A stretch of DNA of 52,975 nt from assembly GCA_021787665.1 (NCBI GenBank), contig JAJYLN010000017.1, positions 1 to 52,975 on the forward strand. The letters are read 5' to 3'. Shown one piece after another: positions 8,136 to 30,317 of this stretch. The translations under genes and the position numbers were made by a program. The stretch comes from a bacterium (GTDB lineage Bacteria; JAMCPX01). The notes under the pieces were generated by a model. The model was not told the DNA's origin and searched no databases. It saw only the letters and a program-made list of their open reading frames with translations. Positions within the stretch are counted from its first letter, which is position 1; each line of letters begins with the position of its first letter.

Positions 8136-9274
8136 TTGCAGCTAACGAAGCGGCTGTTGCAGAAGGCACTCTCGGCAGAGATGACGGAGCGCCTGGGGTA
8201 TGAGAACTATTCACCCGACGGGCACAGCAGCGGGAATTCCAGCAACGGGACGACCAAGAAAACGATCCTGTCTGATAACGGAGAGGTGGAGATAGAAACA
8301 CCGCGAGACCGGGAAGGCAGCTTTGAGCCGCAGATTATCAAGAAACGGCAGCACCGGTTTGAGGGGTTCGATGACAAGATACTGTCGATGTACTCGCACG
8401 GGATGAGCACGCGGGACATCCAGAACCATCTCAAAGACATCTATGGGGTCGACGTATCAGCGGATCTCATTTCGAGTGTCACGGAAAAGGTCATGGAAGA
8501 TATCAAGGAATGGCAGAGCCGCCCCCTGTCCCGGTTATACCCGGTCGTGTACCTGGATGCAGTACGAGTGAAAGACCGGGATAACGGACATATCATCAAC
8601 AAAGCGGTCTATCTTGCACGGGGCGTCGGGCTGGATGGGCAGAAGGACGTCCTGGGGATGTGGATAGCCCAGACGGAGGGGGCCAAATTCTGGGCCATGA
8701 TATTGACGGAACTGAAGAACCGCGGGGTGGAAGATATCTTTATCATCTGCGTGAATGGTTGAAAGGGATTCAGCGAGACAATAGCGGGTGTTTATCCCCC
8801 AACGCAGGTACAGTTGTGTATCGTGCATAGGAGCCGGAATTCGCTGAAATATGTGTCCTGGAAGGACCGCAAAGCGGTCGTAGAAGCCCTCAAGCCAATC
8901 TATAGTGCCGCCCGACTGCGGGAGCAGCACAAGAAAGCCTGAAGGCATTTTGTGCAGTCTGGGACAGCAAGTAGCCGACGATCGGGGATCTGTGGCGGCG
9001 GAACTGGGACGGGGTGATACCGTTTCTGGCGTACCCTGATTACATCCGGCGTGCTATCTACACGACCAATGCTATAGAGTCGCTGAATCACAGTCTGCGC
9101 AAGATCACGAAAAACCGGGGGTCATTCCCCAGCGACGAGGCAGCCTTAAAACGGTTGTACCTGGGATTACAGAATGCCAAAAAGAAGTGGACGATGCCGA
9201 TCTGGCAATGGAAGGATGCGTTGAATCAGTTTGCGGTTGTTTTTGCGGGCAGATTCCCGCTGGGATTGGAATAA
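8136..9274 (+). pseudogene. IS256-family transposase, multiply disrupted
   Basis: A decayed DDE transposase of the IS256 family. The recognisable part starts near a TTG at 8136 (LTKRLLQKALSAEMTERLGYE); the first ~30-50 codons are missing or scrambled. The first catalytic Asp is intact (VVYLDAVRVK). The second is mutated to Asn (ICVNG instead of VDG) and followed directly by TGA 8760-8762 where Leu is expected. The same frame continues (QLCIVHRSRNSLKYVSWKDRKAV) to a frameshift near 8940. In the new frame a TAG at 8972-8974 interrupts PTIGDLWRRNWDG, after which YTTNAIESLNHSLRK with the catalytic Glu follows to 9274. At least four lesions make it certainly dead. I found no clear terminal inverted repeats at 8041-8110 or 9275-9335. 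Confidence 0.9.
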
Positions 9275-23165: not shown

Positions 23166-23238
23166 AGGCGGATAGCTCAGTTGGTAGAGCGCCACTCTTA
23201 CACGGTGGATGTCGCAGGTTCGAGCCCTGTTCCGCCTA
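23166..23238 (+). tRNA. tRNA-Val (anticodon TAC)
   Basis: A complete cloverleaf: acceptor AGGCGGA/TCCGCCT, D-stem GCTC/GAGC, anticodon stem CCACT/GGTGG with loop CTTACAC (anticodon TAC), T-arm GCAGG TTCGAGC CCTGT, discriminator A. CCA is not encoded. It is transcribed together with tRNA-Asp eight bases downstream. Confidence 0.95.
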
Positions 23239-23246
23239 GTGTTTAT

Positions 23247-23321
23247 GGGGTCGTAGTTCAGTTTGGTTAGAACGTCCGCCTGTCACGCGGAAGGTCGCGG
23301 GTTCGAACCCCGTCGACCCCG
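23247..23321 (+). tRNA. tRNA-Asp (anticodon GTC)
   Basis: Acceptor GGGGTCG/CGACCCC, D-stem GTTC/GAAC, anticodon stem TCCGC/GCGGA with loop CTGTCAC (anticodon GTC), T-arm GCGGG TTCGAAC CCCGT, discriminator G. CCA is not encoded. A run of six T follows (23322-23327) and probably ends the transcript ahead of the convergent reductase gene. Confidence 0.95.
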
Positions 23322-23338
23322 TTTTTTATGAAGCCCGA

Positions 23339-25666
23339 TTACCCCTTCTTTACGAGCAGCCTGAAGTGGGTATTATCGAGCTTATCAACCGAGACGATGA
23401 TGTTTCCGTCGTCCTCGAGGCTCCTTGGTACGTTCGTTATGGGCTCGCCCTCGTCGACGTAAATCTCGAGTTCGTCGCCGCTCGTCAGCTCCTCGAGCTT
23501 CAGCTTTGCCCTTACGTAGTTATACGGACACTTTACACCCTTTAAGTCCAGTATCTGTTTTGGCATCTTAACCTCTACTTTATTCGCCTCTCGTATACAT
23601 GTACCGTTCAGAAGCGCATCGTCAAATGATTCCGTTGTCTTTCTGATTCTGTGGATGGCGTTCCTGATGTCCTTTACCGTTTTTTCGACGTCGTCCGTCT
23701 GTCTGCTCTCGTGCAGCCTGGTATAGGTACCCATGATAGACTCATCTATAATTCCCTCTTTTCTCAGCTTCGCAACGTACATCCCTAAATCCTCCCCGGT
23801 CGTGTCCGGGTCGACACCCTGTGTAATGAGCAGCGCCTGCAGGGCGTAGATGAGTGCGTCCTTGCTGTAGGCGAGCGACTGCTCCGGGATGCCGCGCCCC
23901 GCAAATGTATTCGCGTCCATTATCTTTGTCTCTGCCCTGTTCAGGTATATCTCTATGGTGTCCACGACACCGCCCGCACACTCGCCCTTGCCGATGTCCT
24001 TTATGGTAAACGGCTCGTCCATGCCGAAGTCGTAGTAGAATTTCGGTGCACGCTCGTACTCAGGCAGGTAGGAGTAATGCAGCAGCTCCTCGGCCAGCCT
24101 CTCTTCTCCGTATCGGGCAACCCATGCCTTGAACGTCTCGTCCGCTTGTTTTGTGCTCGTGTACAACTCGAGTAGTGCTCTTGTAAAGGCGGGTGTATGC
24201 CCTGCCGGTATCTTCAGGAACGGTTTTGAGAAGCGAAACCCCCGCTCACTTCCTTCACCGCCCACATAGACCTGATAGAACGGGGCATGTCTCTCGCCTA
24301 TACGCCTTGCCATGCCGCTGAAGCCGATGCCGGCGATGTGGTGCTGTCCACATGAGTTGGGACAACCGCATACCCGTATCTTGATGTCCGACAAGTCGCC
24401 ACTCAGGTGGGTATCGAGCTCGTCGTGAATGGCCTGTGCCAGTCCCTGGGACCTCGCGATCCCGAGGTTGCACGTCTTTGCACCCGGACAGCTCACGATA
24501 TCGAGCACCGTGTTGTCCTGTGCTATCAAGCCAGCCCGCTTCAGATCAAGATACACGGTCTCGATAGTACCCGTACCTATCCACGGTATGATAAGATCCT
24601 GATCGAGGGTGGTCCTTATCTCTCCGCTTCCGTGGAGACGGGAGAGCCTCACGACCTCCCTGAGGCTTTGAGAGGTTGTATCGCCATAAGGCAGGTGAAT
24701 GATTACCGCGCAGTAGCCCCTTTGCAACTGCGTGATTACCCTGCTCTGTGCCCACTGCTCCCCGTCTTTGTCGGGCAGTATGCCATGATCTGTCTCCGCG
24801 GCGCTGCAGTTCATGGCGATGTCGGAATCCGGCTGATCGCCGTAGATGCCTCTCACGACCCGGTACTCTTCTTCTATCAGTGACTTTACCGCATCGATCC
24901 CTTTTTCCTCGATAAGATACTTCAGTCTTGCCATGTTCCTGTTTGTCCGGTTCCCATGCCTGTCGAAAACCCGTATGACAGCGTCCGCAAATTGGATCGC
25001 CTCATCGTATCGTATGAAATCTTTTATCAGTTCAGCGGCCCTTGGATGCCCGCCGAGACCACCGCCCACATAAACTGTAAAGCCTGGTATGCCGTCCCTC
25101 CCGGTGGCGATAAAGCCTATGTCGTTGATCCTGCTGTAGGCACAGTCATCGCCGCATCCGCTGAACGAGATCTTGAACTTCCTCGGCAGGTTCTGGCATA
25201 TCGGGTTGCCGAGGAAATGCTCAGATGTCCTGCGTGCAAGGGCCGATACATCGAACGCTTGTTTCGGGCAGATGCCTGCAAAAGGGCACGATGTAATGTT
25301 TCTCACCGAATTGCCGCAGGCCTCTCTTGTGGTGATACCGGCCTCTGCATAGGCAGATAGAATCTCGTGGACGTGCTTCAGGTCGACCCAATGAATCTGG
25401 ATGTCTTGTCTCGTCGTGAGATGCATAAGCCCGCGGGCATACTTCTGGGCGACTTCGGCTATACGATCGAGCTGATAATCCAGTATCCGGCCCTGCGGAA
25501 GTTTTGTCCTTACCATGTAGAACCCCGGCTGGCGCTGACTATAGACGCCATGGCTCAATCGCAGAGTCTTGAACTTCTCTTCGCTGAGCGTGCCTGACAG
25601 AAACCTCTCTATCTGGGCCCTAAATTCGTCTATATCGCTCGTTAGAAAATCTTTTAAAACCTGCAT
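23339..25666 (-). CDS. Siroheme sulfite/nitrite reductase with two Cys4 motifs, HEPN-like linker and C-terminal TusA domain
   Basis: A 775-residue fusion (numbers below count from an alternative GTG two codons upstream; ATG 25666 is preferred, with GAGG five bases before it). The reductase part has the usual internal duplication (ferredoxin-like half at 45-100, catalytic half from 110; repeated from ~315). The C-terminal half carries the siroheme-[4Fe-4S] set C395-x5-C401...C437-x3-C441. The N-terminal half also has a full set, C129-x5-C135...C173-x3-C177, where classical NirA/CysI proteins have lost the cysteines. Residues ~555-690 form a helical HEPN-like segment, and 705-777 a TusA/SirA-like sulfur-carrier domain with the active-site Cys in KGVKCPYN. 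No signal peptide, so cytoplasmic. Whether sulfite, nitrite or another sulfur compound is the substrate cannot be told; the TusA domain favours sulfur. Confidence 0.9.
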   Translation of the reverse strand: MQVLKDFLTSDIDEFRAQIERFLSGTLSEEKFKTLRLSHGVYSQRQPGFYMVRTKLPQGRILDYQLDRIAEVAQKYARGLMHLTTRQDIQIHWVDLKHVHEILSAYAEAGITTREACGNSVRNITSCPFAGICPKQAFDVSALARRTSEHFLGNPICQNLPRKFKISFSGCGDDCAYSRINDIGFIATGRDGIPGFTVYVGGGLGGHPRAAELIKDFIRYDEAIQFADAVIRVFDRHGNRTNRNMARLKYLIEEKGIDAVKSLIEEEYRVVRGIYGDQPDSDIAMNCSAAETDHGILPDKDGEQWAQSRVITQLQRGYCAVIIHLPYGDTTSQSLREVVRLSRLHGSGEIRTTLDQDLIIPWIGTGTIETVYLDLKRAGLIAQDNTVLDIVSCPGAKTCNLGIARSQGLAQAIHDELDTHLSGDLSDIKIRVCGCPNSCGQHHIAGIGFSGMARRIGERHAPFYQVYVGGEGSERGFRFSKPFLKIPAGHTPAFTRALLELYTSTKQADETFKAWVARYGEERLAEELLHYSYLPEYERAPKFYYDFGMDEPFTIKDIGKGECAGGVVDTIEIYLNRAETKIMDANTFAGRGIPEQSLAYSKDALIYALQALLITQGVDPDTTGEDLGMYVAKLRKEGIIDESIMGTYTRLHESRQTDDVEKTVKDIRNAIHRIRKTTESFDDALLNGTCIREANKVEVKMPKQILDLKGVKCPYNYVRAKLKLEELTSGDELEIYVDEGEPITNVPRSLEDDGNIIVSVDKLDNTHFRLLVKKG

Positions 25667-25698
25667 AAGCACCTCAATACGAGTAATTAACTTGTATA

Positions 25699-25728
25699 TA
25701 CATACATAATCCTTACTATTATTGTCAA
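25699..25728 (-). promoter_or_regulatory. Promoter of the siroheme reductase-TusA gene
   Basis: Minus strand TTGACA (25723-25728), 18-bp spacer, TATGTA (25699-25704), giving a leader of ~25 bases to ATG 25666. It is nearly back-to-back with the candidate promoter of the divergent operon. Confidence 0.6.
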
Positions 25729-25753
25729 GTATTATTTCATGTTCAGGTTTTTA

Positions 25754-25783
25754 TTGACAAGAAAAAAAACTGATTGCTACCCT
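25754..25783 (+). promoter_or_regulatory. Candidate promoter of the Lpd-lipoyl-cytochrome operon
   Basis: TTGACA (25754-25759), 18-bp spacer, TACCCT (25778-25783). The predicted start is only about six bases before ATG 25796, so the transcript would be nearly leaderless. The -10 is weak. Confidence 0.35.
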
Positions 25784-25795
25784 GAATTCGTGAGC

Positions 25796-27211
25796 ATGTA
25801 TGACCTTATAGTGATCGGCGCCGGTATCGGTGGCTATCCGGCAGCTATACGGGGGGCCCAGCTTGGGGCAAAGGTCCTTATCGTCGAAAAGGCCGAGGTG
25901 GGAGGTACCTGCCTGAATAGGGGCTGTATACCAACCAAGGCTCTGAAGGCGACCTCCGAAATGCTTGATGGCCTGCACAGGCTTGGCGAGTTCGGACTTT
26001 CGGGCAGGGTAGAAGTCAGTGTGGACATGAACAAGATCGTACAGAGGAAAAACCGGATCGTGGATGAACTCGTGAAAGGTGTTCATTTTTTATTGCGCTC
26101 GCAGGGGGTCACGTTAAAGTCAGGTGCTGTGACGTTTCTATCAAAGAACAAGGTCCGGATAACCTCGCGTGGCGGAGCGAGCGAGACCGCCGAATCGAAA
26201 GGATTCATCATAGCCACGGGATCTTCGCCGGCCGGACTCCCGGGCGTCGAGCCGGACGGCTCACGTATCCTCACGAGCGATCAGATACTCGATATTGATA
26301 CCTTGCCAAAAAGACTTATTATAATAGGAAGCGGCGTGATCGGCACCGAGATGGCTTTTATATTCCGGAGTTTGGGGGTCGATGTTACACTCCTCGAGAT
26401 GATGCCAAGGCCGTTACCATCGGAGGAGGAGGAAATATCGAGGTTAATCTCAAGGAGCTTTAAGAAAGTCGGTATCAAACTGAAGACGCAGGTCCGCGTT
26501 GCACGCATCGACATAAGAGACGACGTCAGCGTTTACCTTGACAATAATGAGGTCGTGAACGCAGACAGGGTACTTGTTGCGGTGGGAAGAAAGATAAATA
26601 CCGGCGAACTCGGGCTTGGGGCACTCGGTATAAAGCTTGGTAAACAGCACGAGATTATGGTTGATCCATTTTTTAACACAGGTATTGACAACATCTACGC
26701 ATGCGGTGATGTAATTGGCGGTATGATGCTCGCACACGTTGCTTACAAAGAAGGCATAACGGCGGCCGCAAATCTGCTGGGAAGCGAGAAACGGTCCATC
26801 AACTATCGTGCGATACCATATGCTATCTACTCGAGCCCTGAAGCGGCAAGCGTGGGACTTACTGAGGGAAAGGCACGGGACATGGGTTTCGAGGTCAGGA
26901 CGGGCGTGTTTCCGTACAGGGCACTGGGGAAGGCAAGGGCATATTCGGAGACGGACGGCGTTGTGAAAGTGGTCGTTGATGGTGACACGCAGAAAGTGCT
27001 CGGTATGCATGTCGTCGGTCCTCACGCCACGGACGCTATTGCTCAGGGCGCGATGGCCATCCAGAACGATCTGACCGTGCGATCGCTCAGCGATACCGTT
27101 GCCGCGCATCCGACCTATGCAGAGGCAGTGATGGAAGCCGCGGAGGATGTCTTTTCCCGTGCGATTCATCAGCCAAGGATAATGACGAAAGAACAATCGG
27201 GTGGGAATTGA
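25796..27211 (+). CDS. lpdA: Dihydrolipoyl dehydrogenase
   Basis: FAD flavoprotein that reoxidises dihydrolipoyl groups with NAD+. The 471-residue protein starts at the family-typical MYDLIVIGAGIGGYPAAIRG (FAD Rossmann); an ATG at 25739 adds an unlikely extension. The redox-active disulfide is C39-LNRG-C44, the NAD-binding motif is IIGSGVIGTEMA, and the second FAD motif is IYACGDVIGG. The C-terminal catalytic dyad is HPTYAEAVMEA (His/Glu). It heads a five-gene operon with a lipoyl carrier 18 bases after it. No E1/E2 dehydrogenase components and no other glycine-cleavage genes are in the window, so the dihydrolipoyl substrate is most likely the adjacent GcvH-like protein. Confidence 0.93.
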   Translation: MYDLIVIGAGIGGYPAAIRGAQLGAKVLIVEKAEVGGTCLNRGCIPTKALKATSEMLDGLHRLGEFGLSGRVEVSVDMNKIVQRKNRIVDELVKGVHFLLRSQGVTLKSGAVTFLSKNKVRITSRGGASETAESKGFIIATGSSPAGLPGVEPDGSRILTSDQILDIDTLPKRLIIIGSGVIGTEMAFIFRSLGVDVTLLEMMPRPLPSEEEEISRLISRSFKKVGIKLKTQVRVARIDIRDDVSVYLDNNEVVNADRVLVAVGRKINTGELGLGALGIKLGKQHEIMVDPFFNTGIDNIYACGDVIGGMMLAHVAYKEGITAAANLLGSEKRSINYRAIPYAIYSSPEAASVGLTEGKARDMGFEVRTGVFPYRALGKARAYSETDGVVKVVVDGDTQKVLGMHVVGPHATDAIAQGAMAIQNDLTVRSLSDTVAAHPTYAEAVMEAAEDVFSRAIHQPRIMTKEQSGGN

Positions 27212-27229
27212 GGAAGGAGGTTGATGCGT

Positions 27230-27613
27230 ATGGCAGATGATATCTGGTACAATGATGGCCATGTATGGACGACCGTAGAAGGAAATCATGCCTACATCGG
27301 CGTCTCGTATTATGCACAGGAAGAACTCGGCGACATCCTGTCGGTTGAGTTGCCAGAGGTCGGCGACAAGATCGTGCAGGGCAAGGCTTTTGGCGAGATT
27401 GAGTCAGCGAAGACTGTAAGCGATATCGTGTCTCCGCTTTCAGGCAGGGTCGTGGAAGTAAACAACGATGTGATCAATGAGCCCGGGATAATAAACGAAG
27501 ACCCTCTCGGCGATGGGTGGCTACTGGAGATAGAAGGGATCGACGCGAAAGAGCTGAGGTCGCTCATGACGCAGGAGAAGTACGAGAAGTATGTAAAGGA
27601 ACTGTCGAAATGA
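27230..27613 (+). CDS. GcvH-like lipoyl carrier protein
   Basis: A 127-residue lipoyl-domain protein closely following glycine cleavage H protein: IGVSYYAQEELGDILSVELPEVGD, then the lipoylation motif GEIESAKTVSDI with K61 as attachment site, and NEDPLGDGWLLEIE. ATG 27230 is chosen because AAGGAGG lies nine bases upstream; ATG 27224 would be too close. There is no gcvT or gcvP beside it. Stand-alone H-like proteins occur both as true GcvH and as lipoate-binding proteins (LbpA) of the sHdr sulfur-oxidation pathway. By sequence this one is nearer GcvH, but its neighbours (Lpd, NfnAB-like flavoproteins, divergent TusA-fused reductase) argue for a redox or sulfur role. Its stop overlaps the next start (ATGA). 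Confidence 0.88.
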   Translation: MADDIWYNDGHVWTTVEGNHAYIGVSYYAQEELGDILSVELPEVGDKIVQGKAFGEIESAKTVSDIVSPLSGRVVEVNNDVINEPGIINEDPLGDGWLLEIEGIDAKELRSLMTQEKYEKYVKELSK

Positions 27614-28440
27614 ACAAAATCGTGAAGAAGAGGATGCTGTCGCCGGTGATAGCGGAGATAGAGCTGTCAGCACCGTACATTGCGAGGTCGCAGAAGCCGG
27701 GACAGTTTGTCATCGTGAGGGTCGACGATAGGGGCGAGAGGATACCCCTCACCATTGCGCATGCGGATGCAGAGAAGGGCACGATTACCCTTATCGTGCA
27801 ATCGATAGGCAAAACAACGACCAGGTTCAATTTGATGGAGGCTGGCGAGTCGGTCGCGGACCTGGTGGGACCGCTCGGTAAGCCATCGCATATACAGTAT
27901 TTCGGAAGGGTCGTGACGATAGGCGGTGGCGTCGGTACCGCCATAGCCTGGCCTACGACCCGGGCGTTTAAAGAGGCGGGCAACGAGGTCATCAGCATCA
28001 TTGGTGCACGGACGAAAGAGTTGCTGATCCTTGAGCAGGAGATGCGCGAGATCTCGGACAGGGTCATAGTCACAACCGATGACGGGAGCTACGCGAACAA
28101 AGGGTTCGTGACGGACTCACTGAAGGGACTCATAGAGAATGATACGATACCGAACCTCGTCCTTGCGATCGGTCCTGTCCCGATGATGCGGGCCATCTCG
28201 GAACTCACGCGCACGTATGCGATACCGACCGTCGTGAGCCTTAACCCCATCATGCTCGACGGCACAGGCATGTGCGGGGTGTGCAGGGTCTCGGTGGGCG
28301 GCAAGACGATGTTCGCGTGCGTCGACGGCCCGGAGTTCGATGCGCATCAGGTGGACTTCAATGGTCTTACTCAGAGGCTGAGGTCGTACCAGAAAGAGGA
28401 GAAATTGTCCCTGGAACTTCTAAAATCATGGGAAAGGTAA
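27610..28440 (+). CDS. NfnA/SudB-like ferredoxin-NADP+ reductase subunit alpha
   Basis: A 276-residue FAD/[2Fe-2S] protein. The N-terminal FAD-binding barrel contains KPGQFVIVRVDDRGERIPLTIA, the NAD(P)-binding domain begins VVTIGGGVGTAIAWP, and the C-terminal cluster ligands lie in GTGMCGVCRVSVGGKTMFACVDGPEFD. This is the pattern of dihydroorotate-dehydrogenase-electron-transfer/sulfide-dehydrogenase subunit B and NfnA. With the next gene it should form an NfnAB-type complex exchanging electrons between NAD(H), NADP(H) and ferredoxin, in some organisms by flavin bifurcation, in others acting as polysulfide/sulfide dehydrogenase. ATG 27610 overlaps the lipoyl-protein stop. Confidence 0.88.
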   Translation: MNKIVKKRMLSPVIAEIELSAPYIARSQKPGQFVIVRVDDRGERIPLTIAHADAEKGTITLIVQSIGKTTTRFNLMEAGESVADLVGPLGKPSHIQYFGRVVTIGGGVGTAIAWPTTRAFKEAGNEVISIIGARTKELLILEQEMREISDRVIVTTDDGSYANKGFVTDSLKGLIENDTIPNLVLAIGPVPMMRAISELTRTYAIPTVVSLNPIMLDGTGMCGVCRVSVGGKTMFACVDGPEFDAHQVDFNGLTQRLRSYQKEEKLSLELLKSWER

Positions 28441-28446
28441 TGTAAC

Positions 28447-29859
28447 ATGGCAACATTGGACAAGAAAGAAAGACTCAAGATACAGAGGCATGCGATGCCT
28501 GAGCAGGACCCGATGGTCAGGATAGCCAACTTCGAAGAGGTCAATTTCGGGTTTACACCGAACCTCGCGATAGAAGAGGCGCAGCGATGCCTCCTGTGCC
28601 CGAAGCCGCTCTGCGTGGCCGGATGCCCGGTCAACATTGATATACCCTCCTTCATAAATCTTATAGCGGAGGGTAAATTCACAGAGGCGGCAAAGAAGAT
28701 AAAAGAGACCAACAGCCTTCCTGCGATATGCGGCAGGGTATGTCCCCAGGAAGAGCAGTGCGAAGGCGTGTGTGTCATCGGGAAGAAGGGCACCCCCGTT
28801 GCAATAGGCCACCTTGAGCGGTTTGTCGCTGACTGGGAAAGGACACACGGCGAGATCTCGGTGCCCGGGAAAAGGCCTGCAACCGGTAAGAAGGTTGCTG
28901 TCGTGGGCTCCGGACCGGCCGGGCTGACGGTCGCATCTGAGCTCGTGCAGATGGGGCATGCGGTCACCGTATTCGAGGCGCTCCATGTTCCGGGAGGCGT
29001 GCTTGCCTATGGCATACCCGAATTCAGGTTACCCAAGGACATCCTGGGCAGCGAGGTGGACTATTTGAAGAGGCTCGGTGTCGATATCGTTACCGACTTT
29101 GTCGTTGGAAAGACTTCTACCCTGGATGAGCTGCTGGAATCGGGCTACGACGCAGCATTTGTGGGAAGCGGCGCCGGCTTGCCCGTCTTCCTGAACATAC
29201 CAGGAGAGAACCTCAACGGTGTTTATTCGGCCAACGAGTACCTCACGAGGACCAACCTCATGAAGTCGTACCTCTTCCCTGAGTACGACACCCCCATAGC
29301 AAAGGCCAGAGGCGTGGTCGTGTTCGGAGGCGGTAACACGGCCATGGACGCGGTGCGGACGGCCAAGAGATTTGGCACGGAACATGCATACCTGATCTAC
29401 AGGAGGTCATGGGAAGAAATGCCGGCAAGGCTTGAAGAGCGACACCACGCAAAGGCAGAGGGCATCGAGTTCGTGTTTCTGACAGCTCCGACGAGGTTCA
29501 TAGGCGACGAGAGCGGCTGGGTCAAGGCCGTGGAGTGCATCAAGATGGAGCTCGGTGACCCGGACGCGTCGGGAAGAAGGAGGCCCGTACCCATAAAAGG
29601 ATCGGAGTATATGATTGACGCGGAACTCGCCGTGATCGCCGTCGGCAACGGTTCGAACCCGCTGATACCGCTCACGACGCCCGCTATACAGACGAACAAG
29701 TGGGGCAACATCATCGTCAAAGACAAGAGTACATCAACCACGAAGAGCGGCGTCTTCGCGGGCGGCGACATCGTGAGGGGTGGAGCAACGGTAATATTGG
29801 CAATGGGAGACGGCAAGCGGGCGGCAAGAGAAATAGATGTGTATCTGAAATCAAAATAA
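28447..29859 (+). CDS. NfnB/SudA-like subunit (glutamate synthase small-subunit family)
   Basis: A 470-residue flavoprotein of the GltD family. The N-terminal region has cysteine clusters for [4Fe-4S] binding (CLLCPKPLCVAGCPVNIDIP and ICGRVCPQEEQCEGVC). Two nucleotide-binding Rossmann motifs follow (VAVVGSGPAGLTVASEL for FAD; VVVFGGGNTAMDAVRTA for NAD(P)H), and a final FAD motif GVFAGGDIVRGGATVILAMGDG. Partnered by the preceding NfnA/SudB-like gene seven bases upstream. No large glutamate synthase subunit (gltB) is present, which argues against glutamate synthase and for NADH-dependent ferredoxin:NADP+ oxidoreductase or sulfide dehydrogenase. It is followed directly by the cytochrome gene, an unusual partner. 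Confidence 0.88.
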   Translation: MATLDKKERLKIQRHAMPEQDPMVRIANFEEVNFGFTPNLAIEEAQRCLLCPKPLCVAGCPVNIDIPSFINLIAEGKFTEAAKKIKETNSLPAICGRVCPQEEQCEGVCVIGKKGTPVAIGHLERFVADWERTHGEISVPGKRPATGKKVAVVGSGPAGLTVASELVQMGHAVTVFEALHVPGGVLAYGIPEFRLPKDILGSEVDYLKRLGVDIVTDFVVGKTSTLDELLESGYDAAFVGSGAGLPVFLNIPGENLNGVYSANEYLTRTNLMKSYLFPEYDTPIAKARGVVVFGGGNTAMDAVRTAKRFGTEHAYLIYRRSWEEMPARLEERHHAKAEGIEFVFLTAPTRFIGDESGWVKAVECIKMELGDPDASGRRRPVPIKGSEYMIDAELAVIAVGNGSNPLIPLTTPAIQTNKWGNIIVKDKSTSTTKSGVFAGGDIVRGGATVILAMGDGKRAAREIDVYLKSK

Positions 29860-29873
29860 AGGGGGTGAACGGT

Positions 29874-30317
29874 ATGAGGTTTGCAAAAGTGTTTACGGTA
29901 TTGGTAGCAGCGCTTTTCGTTACAGCGATGGCCTACACCGTGGTAGCGGCGCCTACCTATGTTGGTGTCAACCAGTGCAAAATGTGCCACATGAAGCAGT
30001 ACAACGTCTGGAAGGGCACCGCGCATGCGAAGGCATTCGACGTGCTGAAGCCTGCGGACCAGGCAAAGCCGGCGTGTGTGAAGTGCCATGTAACGGGTGA
30101 CAATAAGTCACTGCCGGGCGTACAGTGCGAGGCGTGTCACGGTCCAGGCAGCGAGTACAAAATGTTTTCCGTTATGAAGAACCTGAAAGAGGCCGAGGCG
30201 AAGGGATTGACCCCGAAGCCGGTGGGTGTATGCGTGAAATGCCACAACAAGAACAGCCCGAACTTCAAGGGATTCGATTTCAAGACCATGTGGCCCAAGA
30301 TCCAGCACGGCCTGTGA
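29874..30317 (+). CDS. Periplasmic tetraheme cytochrome c (cytochrome c554-like)
   Basis: A 147-residue exported protein: signal peptide MRFAKVFTVLVAALFVTAMAYTVVA, then four CxxCH heme sites (CKMCH, CVKCH, CEACH, CVKCH) and further His residues (KGTAHAKAFDVL, CHGPG) that could be distal ligands. The spacing resembles the cytochrome c554 family. It should accept or deliver electrons in the periplasm. The ribosome site GGGGGTGA precedes ATG 29874. It is the last gene of the Lpd-lipoyl-NfnAB-like operon, ended by a strong terminator. A physical link between the cytoplasmic flavoproteins and this cytochrome would need a membrane partner that is not encoded here. Confidence 0.93.
   Translation: MRFAKVFTVLVAALFVTAMAYTVVAAPTYVGVNQCKMCHMKQYNVWKGTAHAKAFDVLKPADQAKPACVKCHVTGDNKSLPGVQCEACHGPGSEYKMFSVMKNLKEAEAKGLTPKPVGVCVKCHNKNSPNFKGFDFKTMWPKIQHGL

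Follow-up and report, generated by a model that had tools for sequence, protein, structure and literature searches.

A conserved operon joining a probable repurposed GcvH to dihydrolipoyl dehydrogenase and NfnAB, and its TusA-fused siroheme reductase neighbor, in a genome of the bacterial lineage JAMCPX01

The window, by which is meant the whole 52,975-nt contig JAJYLN010000017.1 of assembly GCA_021787665.1 (GTDB lineage Bacteria; JAMCPX01; genome G000, with an assembly completeness of 92.7%), contains two divergent units comprising six genes, all of which open frames and domain or profile matches place where a sequence-only reading of this DNA had put them. The first unit, on the minus strand (23339..25666), encodes a siroheme sulfite/nitrite reductase of the NirA/Sir type, 775 residues long, with two NIR_SIR halves, a HEPN-like domain and a C-terminal TusA-like domain carrying the motif CPYN; genes for tRNA-Val and tRNA-Asp (23166-23322) lie just downstream of its 3' end, and the open frames at 8136-9274 of the window are transposase-like and broken. 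The second unit consists of five plus-strand genes. Lpd, a dihydrolipoyl dehydrogenase (25790..27211, with a GTG start assigned by comparison with relatives), has intact CLNRGC and HPTYAE active-site motifs and matches TIGR01350 over its cut-off, at 530 bits. It is followed by a GcvH-derived lipoyl carrier of 127 residues, here designated GcvH* (27230..27613), in which the lipoyl lysine, K61, is present, the equivalents of Glu-12 and Glu-14 are Gly and Val, and there is no cysteine. The next two genes encode the small subunit NfnA (27610..28440), with FAD/NAD and [2Fe-2S] sites, and the large subunit NfnB (28447..29859), with a Fer4_20 domain and FAD/NADPH sites; their best solved relatives are 5jca (E 4e-100) and 4ylf (E 2e-166), respectively. 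The last gene (29874..30317) specifies an exported, cytochrome c554-like tetraheme c-type cytochrome with a signal-type N terminus and CxxCH motifs at residues 35, 68, 85, and 120. The gaps between these genes are 18, −4, 6, and 14 bases, which makes a single transcript plausible.

The sequence-only reading proposed that the two transcripts share a 130-base promoter region. With the Lpd start corrected to GTG 25790, the intergenic gap is 123 bp and holds two separate divergent promoters, and in the relatives these belong to two unrelated sets of promoter and palindrome. The reductase promoter, recognized by comparison with relatives (25699..25728, minus strand), has a −35 element TTGACA at 25728-25723, a −10-like element TATGTA at 25704-25699 and a degenerate palindrome near the start, whereas that of the five-gene operon (25754..25783, plus strand), which is kept in eight genomes, has TTGACA at 25754-25759, an 18-base spacer and a −10 element TACCCT at 25778-25783. 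In relatives the region upstream of Lpd reads ACTTGTATACAAGT, then TTGACA, a spacer of 17-18 bases, TACCTT or TACCCT and, about 7 bases on, the start codon; this short distance past the −10 element suggests that the operon transcript is probably leaderless. A match to the palindromic operator ACTTGTATACAAGT with at most one mismatch is found a single time, at the operon, in each of six relatives (G002, G003, and G005-G008), and in G004 at the operon and in three other places; since our own estimate of the chance expectation is about 0.3 sites per 2 Mb, this placement is far from random. In the relatives a separate promoter precedes the reductase gene, accompanied by a different palindrome, TAAGTAAATTACTTA or a near variant. 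The window has the two promoters arranged back to back and lacks the palindrome on the Lpd side. An operator-like motif with one mismatch is also found upstream of a thiolase-like gene (identified by eye) in G000 (C17:15583, L203) and G004 (C15:83239, L205), and in both cases it stands above a GAATGAATAATCATTCATT palindrome.

The phylum is represented in the search collection by nine genomes, all from one family and mostly fragmented. Close homologues of GcvH* (62-83% identity) are present in seven relatives of G000; the gene order of the operon is intact in three of these, and the other four, which are interrupted by contig ends or a frame break, are compatible with it. Lpd, GcvH*, NfnA, and NfnB have dN/dS values of 0.02-0.16 between close pairs, indicative of purifying selection, the comparison for the cytochrome being possible only over a saturated distance. 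The retained order and low dN/dS show that the five plus-strand genes are a real conserved unit, beyond a chance arrangement.

GcvH* scores over the gcvH equivalog cut-off and that of PF01597, forms a clade of its own (support 99/95) and, among 386 genomes, is confined to this phylum, with scores of 236-262 bits as against 141 or less outside it. The aminomethyl-lipoyl arm of the Escherichia coli H protein is held by Glu-12 and Glu-14 (PMC7733448). All 29 homologues whose genes adjoin gcvT or gcvP have Glu-14, compared with 6 of 15 whose genes do not and none of the eight GcvH* sequences, in which the two equivalents are Gly/Asn and Val/Leu throughout; the difference between gcv-linked and unlinked homologues is significant by Fisher's test (p 7e-6), a value that is generous because kinship between the sequences is ignored. 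GcvH* is not linked to gcvT or gcvP, and G000 carries a canonical gcvT-gcvH pair and a gcvP elsewhere, the canonical GcvH being 43% identical to GcvH*. The lipoyl lysine is found in the window and six relatives, in an ES-A/S-K context. The exception is the orthologue in G004 (L039, G004:C37:28181-28561), where K61 is replaced by Glu with neighboring changes, although the Lpd active-site motif and the operon are intact; lipoylation is therefore not universal to the operon. Some other GcvH homologues without Glu-14 lie beside biotin-carboxylase-like and, as judged by eye, lipoate-ligase-like genes (L046, L173, and L183, in G019, G167, and G306). Relatives also have a tandem pair of longer GcvH-domain proteins (about 220-275 residues, one with a hydrophobic N terminus) next to a 4Fe-4S protein (L087, L093-L107; e.g. 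G003:C5:4694-5668), to which there is no match in G000.

These features can be set against the possibility that glycine cleavage, or its reversal, draws a second H protein and its L protein from the operon, with NfnAB supplying or draining reducing power. In this phylum T, H, and P are encoded at gcv loci with no Lpd nearby, all six genomes that carry GcvP also carry the operon, and GcvH* retains enough of the family signature to pass the equivalog cut-off. However, those loci have their own canonical H protein, the operon is under a separate operator, and both arm-holding residues are replaced in every GcvH*, one of which has also lost the lipoyl lysine. A role as a second glycine-cleavage H protein is thus disfavored by residues 12 and 14, and we regard this explanation as unlikely; the Lpd of the operon could nevertheless also serve the ordinary glycine cleavage system, given its absence from the gcv loci.

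Less probable again is a role for GcvH* in relaying or storing lipoate, or as an unlipoylated partner of Lpd and NfnAB. A relay role for GcvH is known in Bacillus (PMC6067878), and the loss of K61 from an intact operon in G004 would suit a partner that carries no lipoate, but the lysine is kept in seven of the eight proteins, LipB and LipA already adjoin the E2 gene, and NfnAB would be left unexplained. With regard to the specific lipoate ligase, sLpl(AB), that accompanies LbpA in the sHdr system, a PF03099 search identified two proteins in G000, and a LipB-like PF21948 protein at C21 escaped that profile. GcvH* appears from its residues and context to be a repurposed H protein, neither a typical component of glycine cleavage nor an LbpA.

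The sequence-only reading treated the reductase and the operon as one module, and it is in their genomic distribution that this view fails. Close homologues of the fused reductase (60-71% identity) are present in five relatives, so that both units occur together in six of the nine genomes, but they are apart in all five relatives that have both, each lying beside other genes, and their divergent pairing was seen in no genome examined except G000; free separation of the two transcripts in related genomes, which that reading had itself named as telling against it, is what was found. Although some of the relatives' contigs are short, the flank upstream of Lpd is visible in every case and never holds the reductase. 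Two further genomes, G003 (99% complete) and G008, have the operon alone, with no fused reductase detected; both have DsrAB-type reductases, which are patchy in the phylum, being found in G001, G002, G003, and G005-G008 and not in G000 or G004. The neighbors in relatives, whose names other than those from Pfam scans were read from sequence by eye, also differ. The operon follows an AAA/DRTGG-domain gene in G003, G005, G006, G007, and G008, which in turn comes after a gene for ADP-forming acetyl-CoA synthetase wherever the contig extends far enough, and in G004 the operon is preceded by an acyl-CoA dehydrogenase gene. The reductase adjoins CcdA-like and thioredoxin-like genes in G002, G005, G006, and G007, and its divergent partner in G006 and G007 is an MFS transporter. 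No sulfur-related genes were found in the operon or its neighborhood in the relatives.

The remaining evidence for the reductase and operon as a single lipoyl-based sulfur redox system is their adjacency in the window and co-occurrence in the phylum, the TusA domain, and the presence of a lipoyl protein with its dehydrogenase. Apart from the unlinking, which largely refutes such a system, the promoters and palindromes of the two units differ in relatives, the reductase has assimilatory relatives, and GcvH* lacks the cysteines of LbpA, so this reading is very unlikely and can be set aside. What stands of the earlier proposal of a distinct lipoyl-based sulfur redox system is the distinct and conserved grouping of lipoyl carrier, Lpd, and NfnAB; the connections to the TusA-fused reductase and to sulfur do not. 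We consider it rather probable that the locus comprises two independent units, an operon built on a repurposed GcvH and an assimilation-type reductase, that are back to back only in this genome.

The reductase itself contains two NIR_SIR and two NIR_SIR_ferr domains and the C-terminal TusA domain, as well as a helical HEPN-like domain at about residues 570-690 that was absent from the earlier description; its match is just under the Pfam cut-off, and a structure model supports this helical domain but gives low confidence for the TusA part. Its nearest relatives among solved structures are nitrite and sulfite reductases of the ferredoxin type. The siroheme-[4Fe-4S] cysteines of the second half (C393, C399, C435, and C439) are present in 18 of 18 aligned homologues. 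In this phylum the first half also keeps cluster-type cysteines (C127, C133, C171, and C175), which several homologues, including those in assimilatory operons, lack. The TusA-like tail has CPYN in the window rather than CPxP, and in all 11 fused copies aligned the cysteine, C713 in this protein, is kept within a motif CPxN(Y/F)V. A TusA-tailed homologue in another phylum (L135) is located with CysN, CysD, CysH, JAB, ThiF, and MetY; tailed homologues from other phyla (L134 and L136) have similar gene sets, and a tail-less one (L142) lies with CobA and CysH. Neighborhoods of ThiS, JAB, E1, and SirA (TusA) with such reductases were described by Iyer et al. in 2006 as sulfur assimilation systems (PMC1779556). 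The fused enzyme is the only siroheme reductase found in G000. CysH (PF01507) had no match in G000 but one in each of eight relatives, two of those matches being partial, and the assimilation route is therefore incomplete in this 92.7% complete assembly. The gene contexts of its homologues make an assimilatory role for the fused reductase likely, in which the TusA-like tail would probably accept the reduced sulfur and pass it on to a carrier.

The lipoate-binding protein LbpA of the sHdr system has two strictly conserved cysteines that are not found in GcvH, some archaeal forms being exceptions, and archaeal hdr clusters carry an Lpd (PMC6067878). GcvH* of the window has none, no hdr-like genes were found in the operon or its neighborhood in relatives, and, in agreement with the earlier statement that the Hdr subunits are absent, a CCG-domain search showed no HdrB-type pair of the sHdr kind in G000, the CCG-domain proteins there being single frames of 405-707 residues. 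Membership in the sHdr/LbpA group was rejected from the lack of cysteines and hdr genes. GcvH* is accordingly extremely improbable as a diverged LbpA from an sHdr-like system for sulfur oxidation, its descent from GcvH and the Lpd of archaeal hdr clusters notwithstanding, in view of its cysteine-free sequence, the lack of an HdrB-type pair in the genome, and its 43% identity to canonical GcvH.

In the proposed working of the repurposed-GcvH operon, some client enzyme would reduce or charge the lipoyl arm of GcvH*, the dedicated Lpd would exchange the electrons of the dithiol with NAD(H), and NfnAB, a bifurcating transhydrogenase, would balance NADH, NADPH, and ferredoxin; the exported cytochrome would be co-regulated and act on the opposite side of the membrane. 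Because Lpd and NfnAB are clear members of their families, the lipoyl dithiol, NAD(H), NADP(H), and ferredoxin could plausibly exchange electrons through them, and the operon probably links its lipoyl carrier with ferredoxin and NAD(P)H. No client gene was found within the operon. As a weak lead, the context slightly favors acyl-CoA or acetate metabolism over sulfur, from the neighboring genes for ADP-forming acetyl-CoA synthetase and acyl-CoA dehydrogenase and the one motif shared with a thiolase-like gene.

Protein-bound lipoate is used in the 2-oxoacid and acetoin dehydrogenases, in glycine cleavage, and in sHdr. The operon may represent a further use, in a small uncultured phylum, in which a carrier descended from GcvH, served by an Lpd and NfnAB of its own, acts as a dithiol electron or acyl shuttle tied to ferredoxin and NAD(P)H, a suggestion that we put forward tentatively. 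The known protein partners of lipoate are few and, if this suggestion is true, another would lengthen a short list. No GcvH-Lpd-Nfn operon was found outside the phylum at the loci of the best-scoring GcvH homologues, and no description of a GcvH-Lpd-NfnAB operon was found in the literature. In G366 (C227; L182/L208), a GcvH with Thr at position 14 is followed directly by Lpd without Nfn, a second GcvH being located elsewhere. When genomes are annotated, inspection of position 14 may help to tell true H proteins from those that have been repurposed.

The reductase resembles the NirA/Sir assimilatory sulfite reductases of the neighborhoods described by Iyer et al. in its intact siroheme-[4Fe-4S] cysteines and in the presence of tailed homologues in those operons, but differs in carrying the TusA-like domain as a fusion, in having no assimilation genes beside it, and in coming from an assembly where CysH was not found. 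GcvH* shares with the H protein of glycine cleavage the PF01597 fold family, the length of 127 residues and, in seven of eight cases, the lipoyl lysine, but it is without the arm-holding residues, is unlinked to gcvT and gcvP, and has its own clade and operon. Like LbpA, it is a GcvH-derived lipoyl carrier outside glycine cleavage, and a link to Lpd is known for LbpA in archaea, but it has neither the conserved cysteines nor hdr genes, and its 43% identity to the canonical GcvH encoded in the same genome compares with tabulated values of 26-35% for LbpAs and E. coli GcvH. The two subunits of NfnAB (NADH-dependent reduced ferredoxin:NADP oxidoreductase) are encoded adjacently and are close matches to the solved NfnAB/NfnI structures, 5jca and 4ylf; in contrast with the known NfnAB, their genes here share an operon with those for a lipoyl carrier, Lpd, and a cytochrome c.
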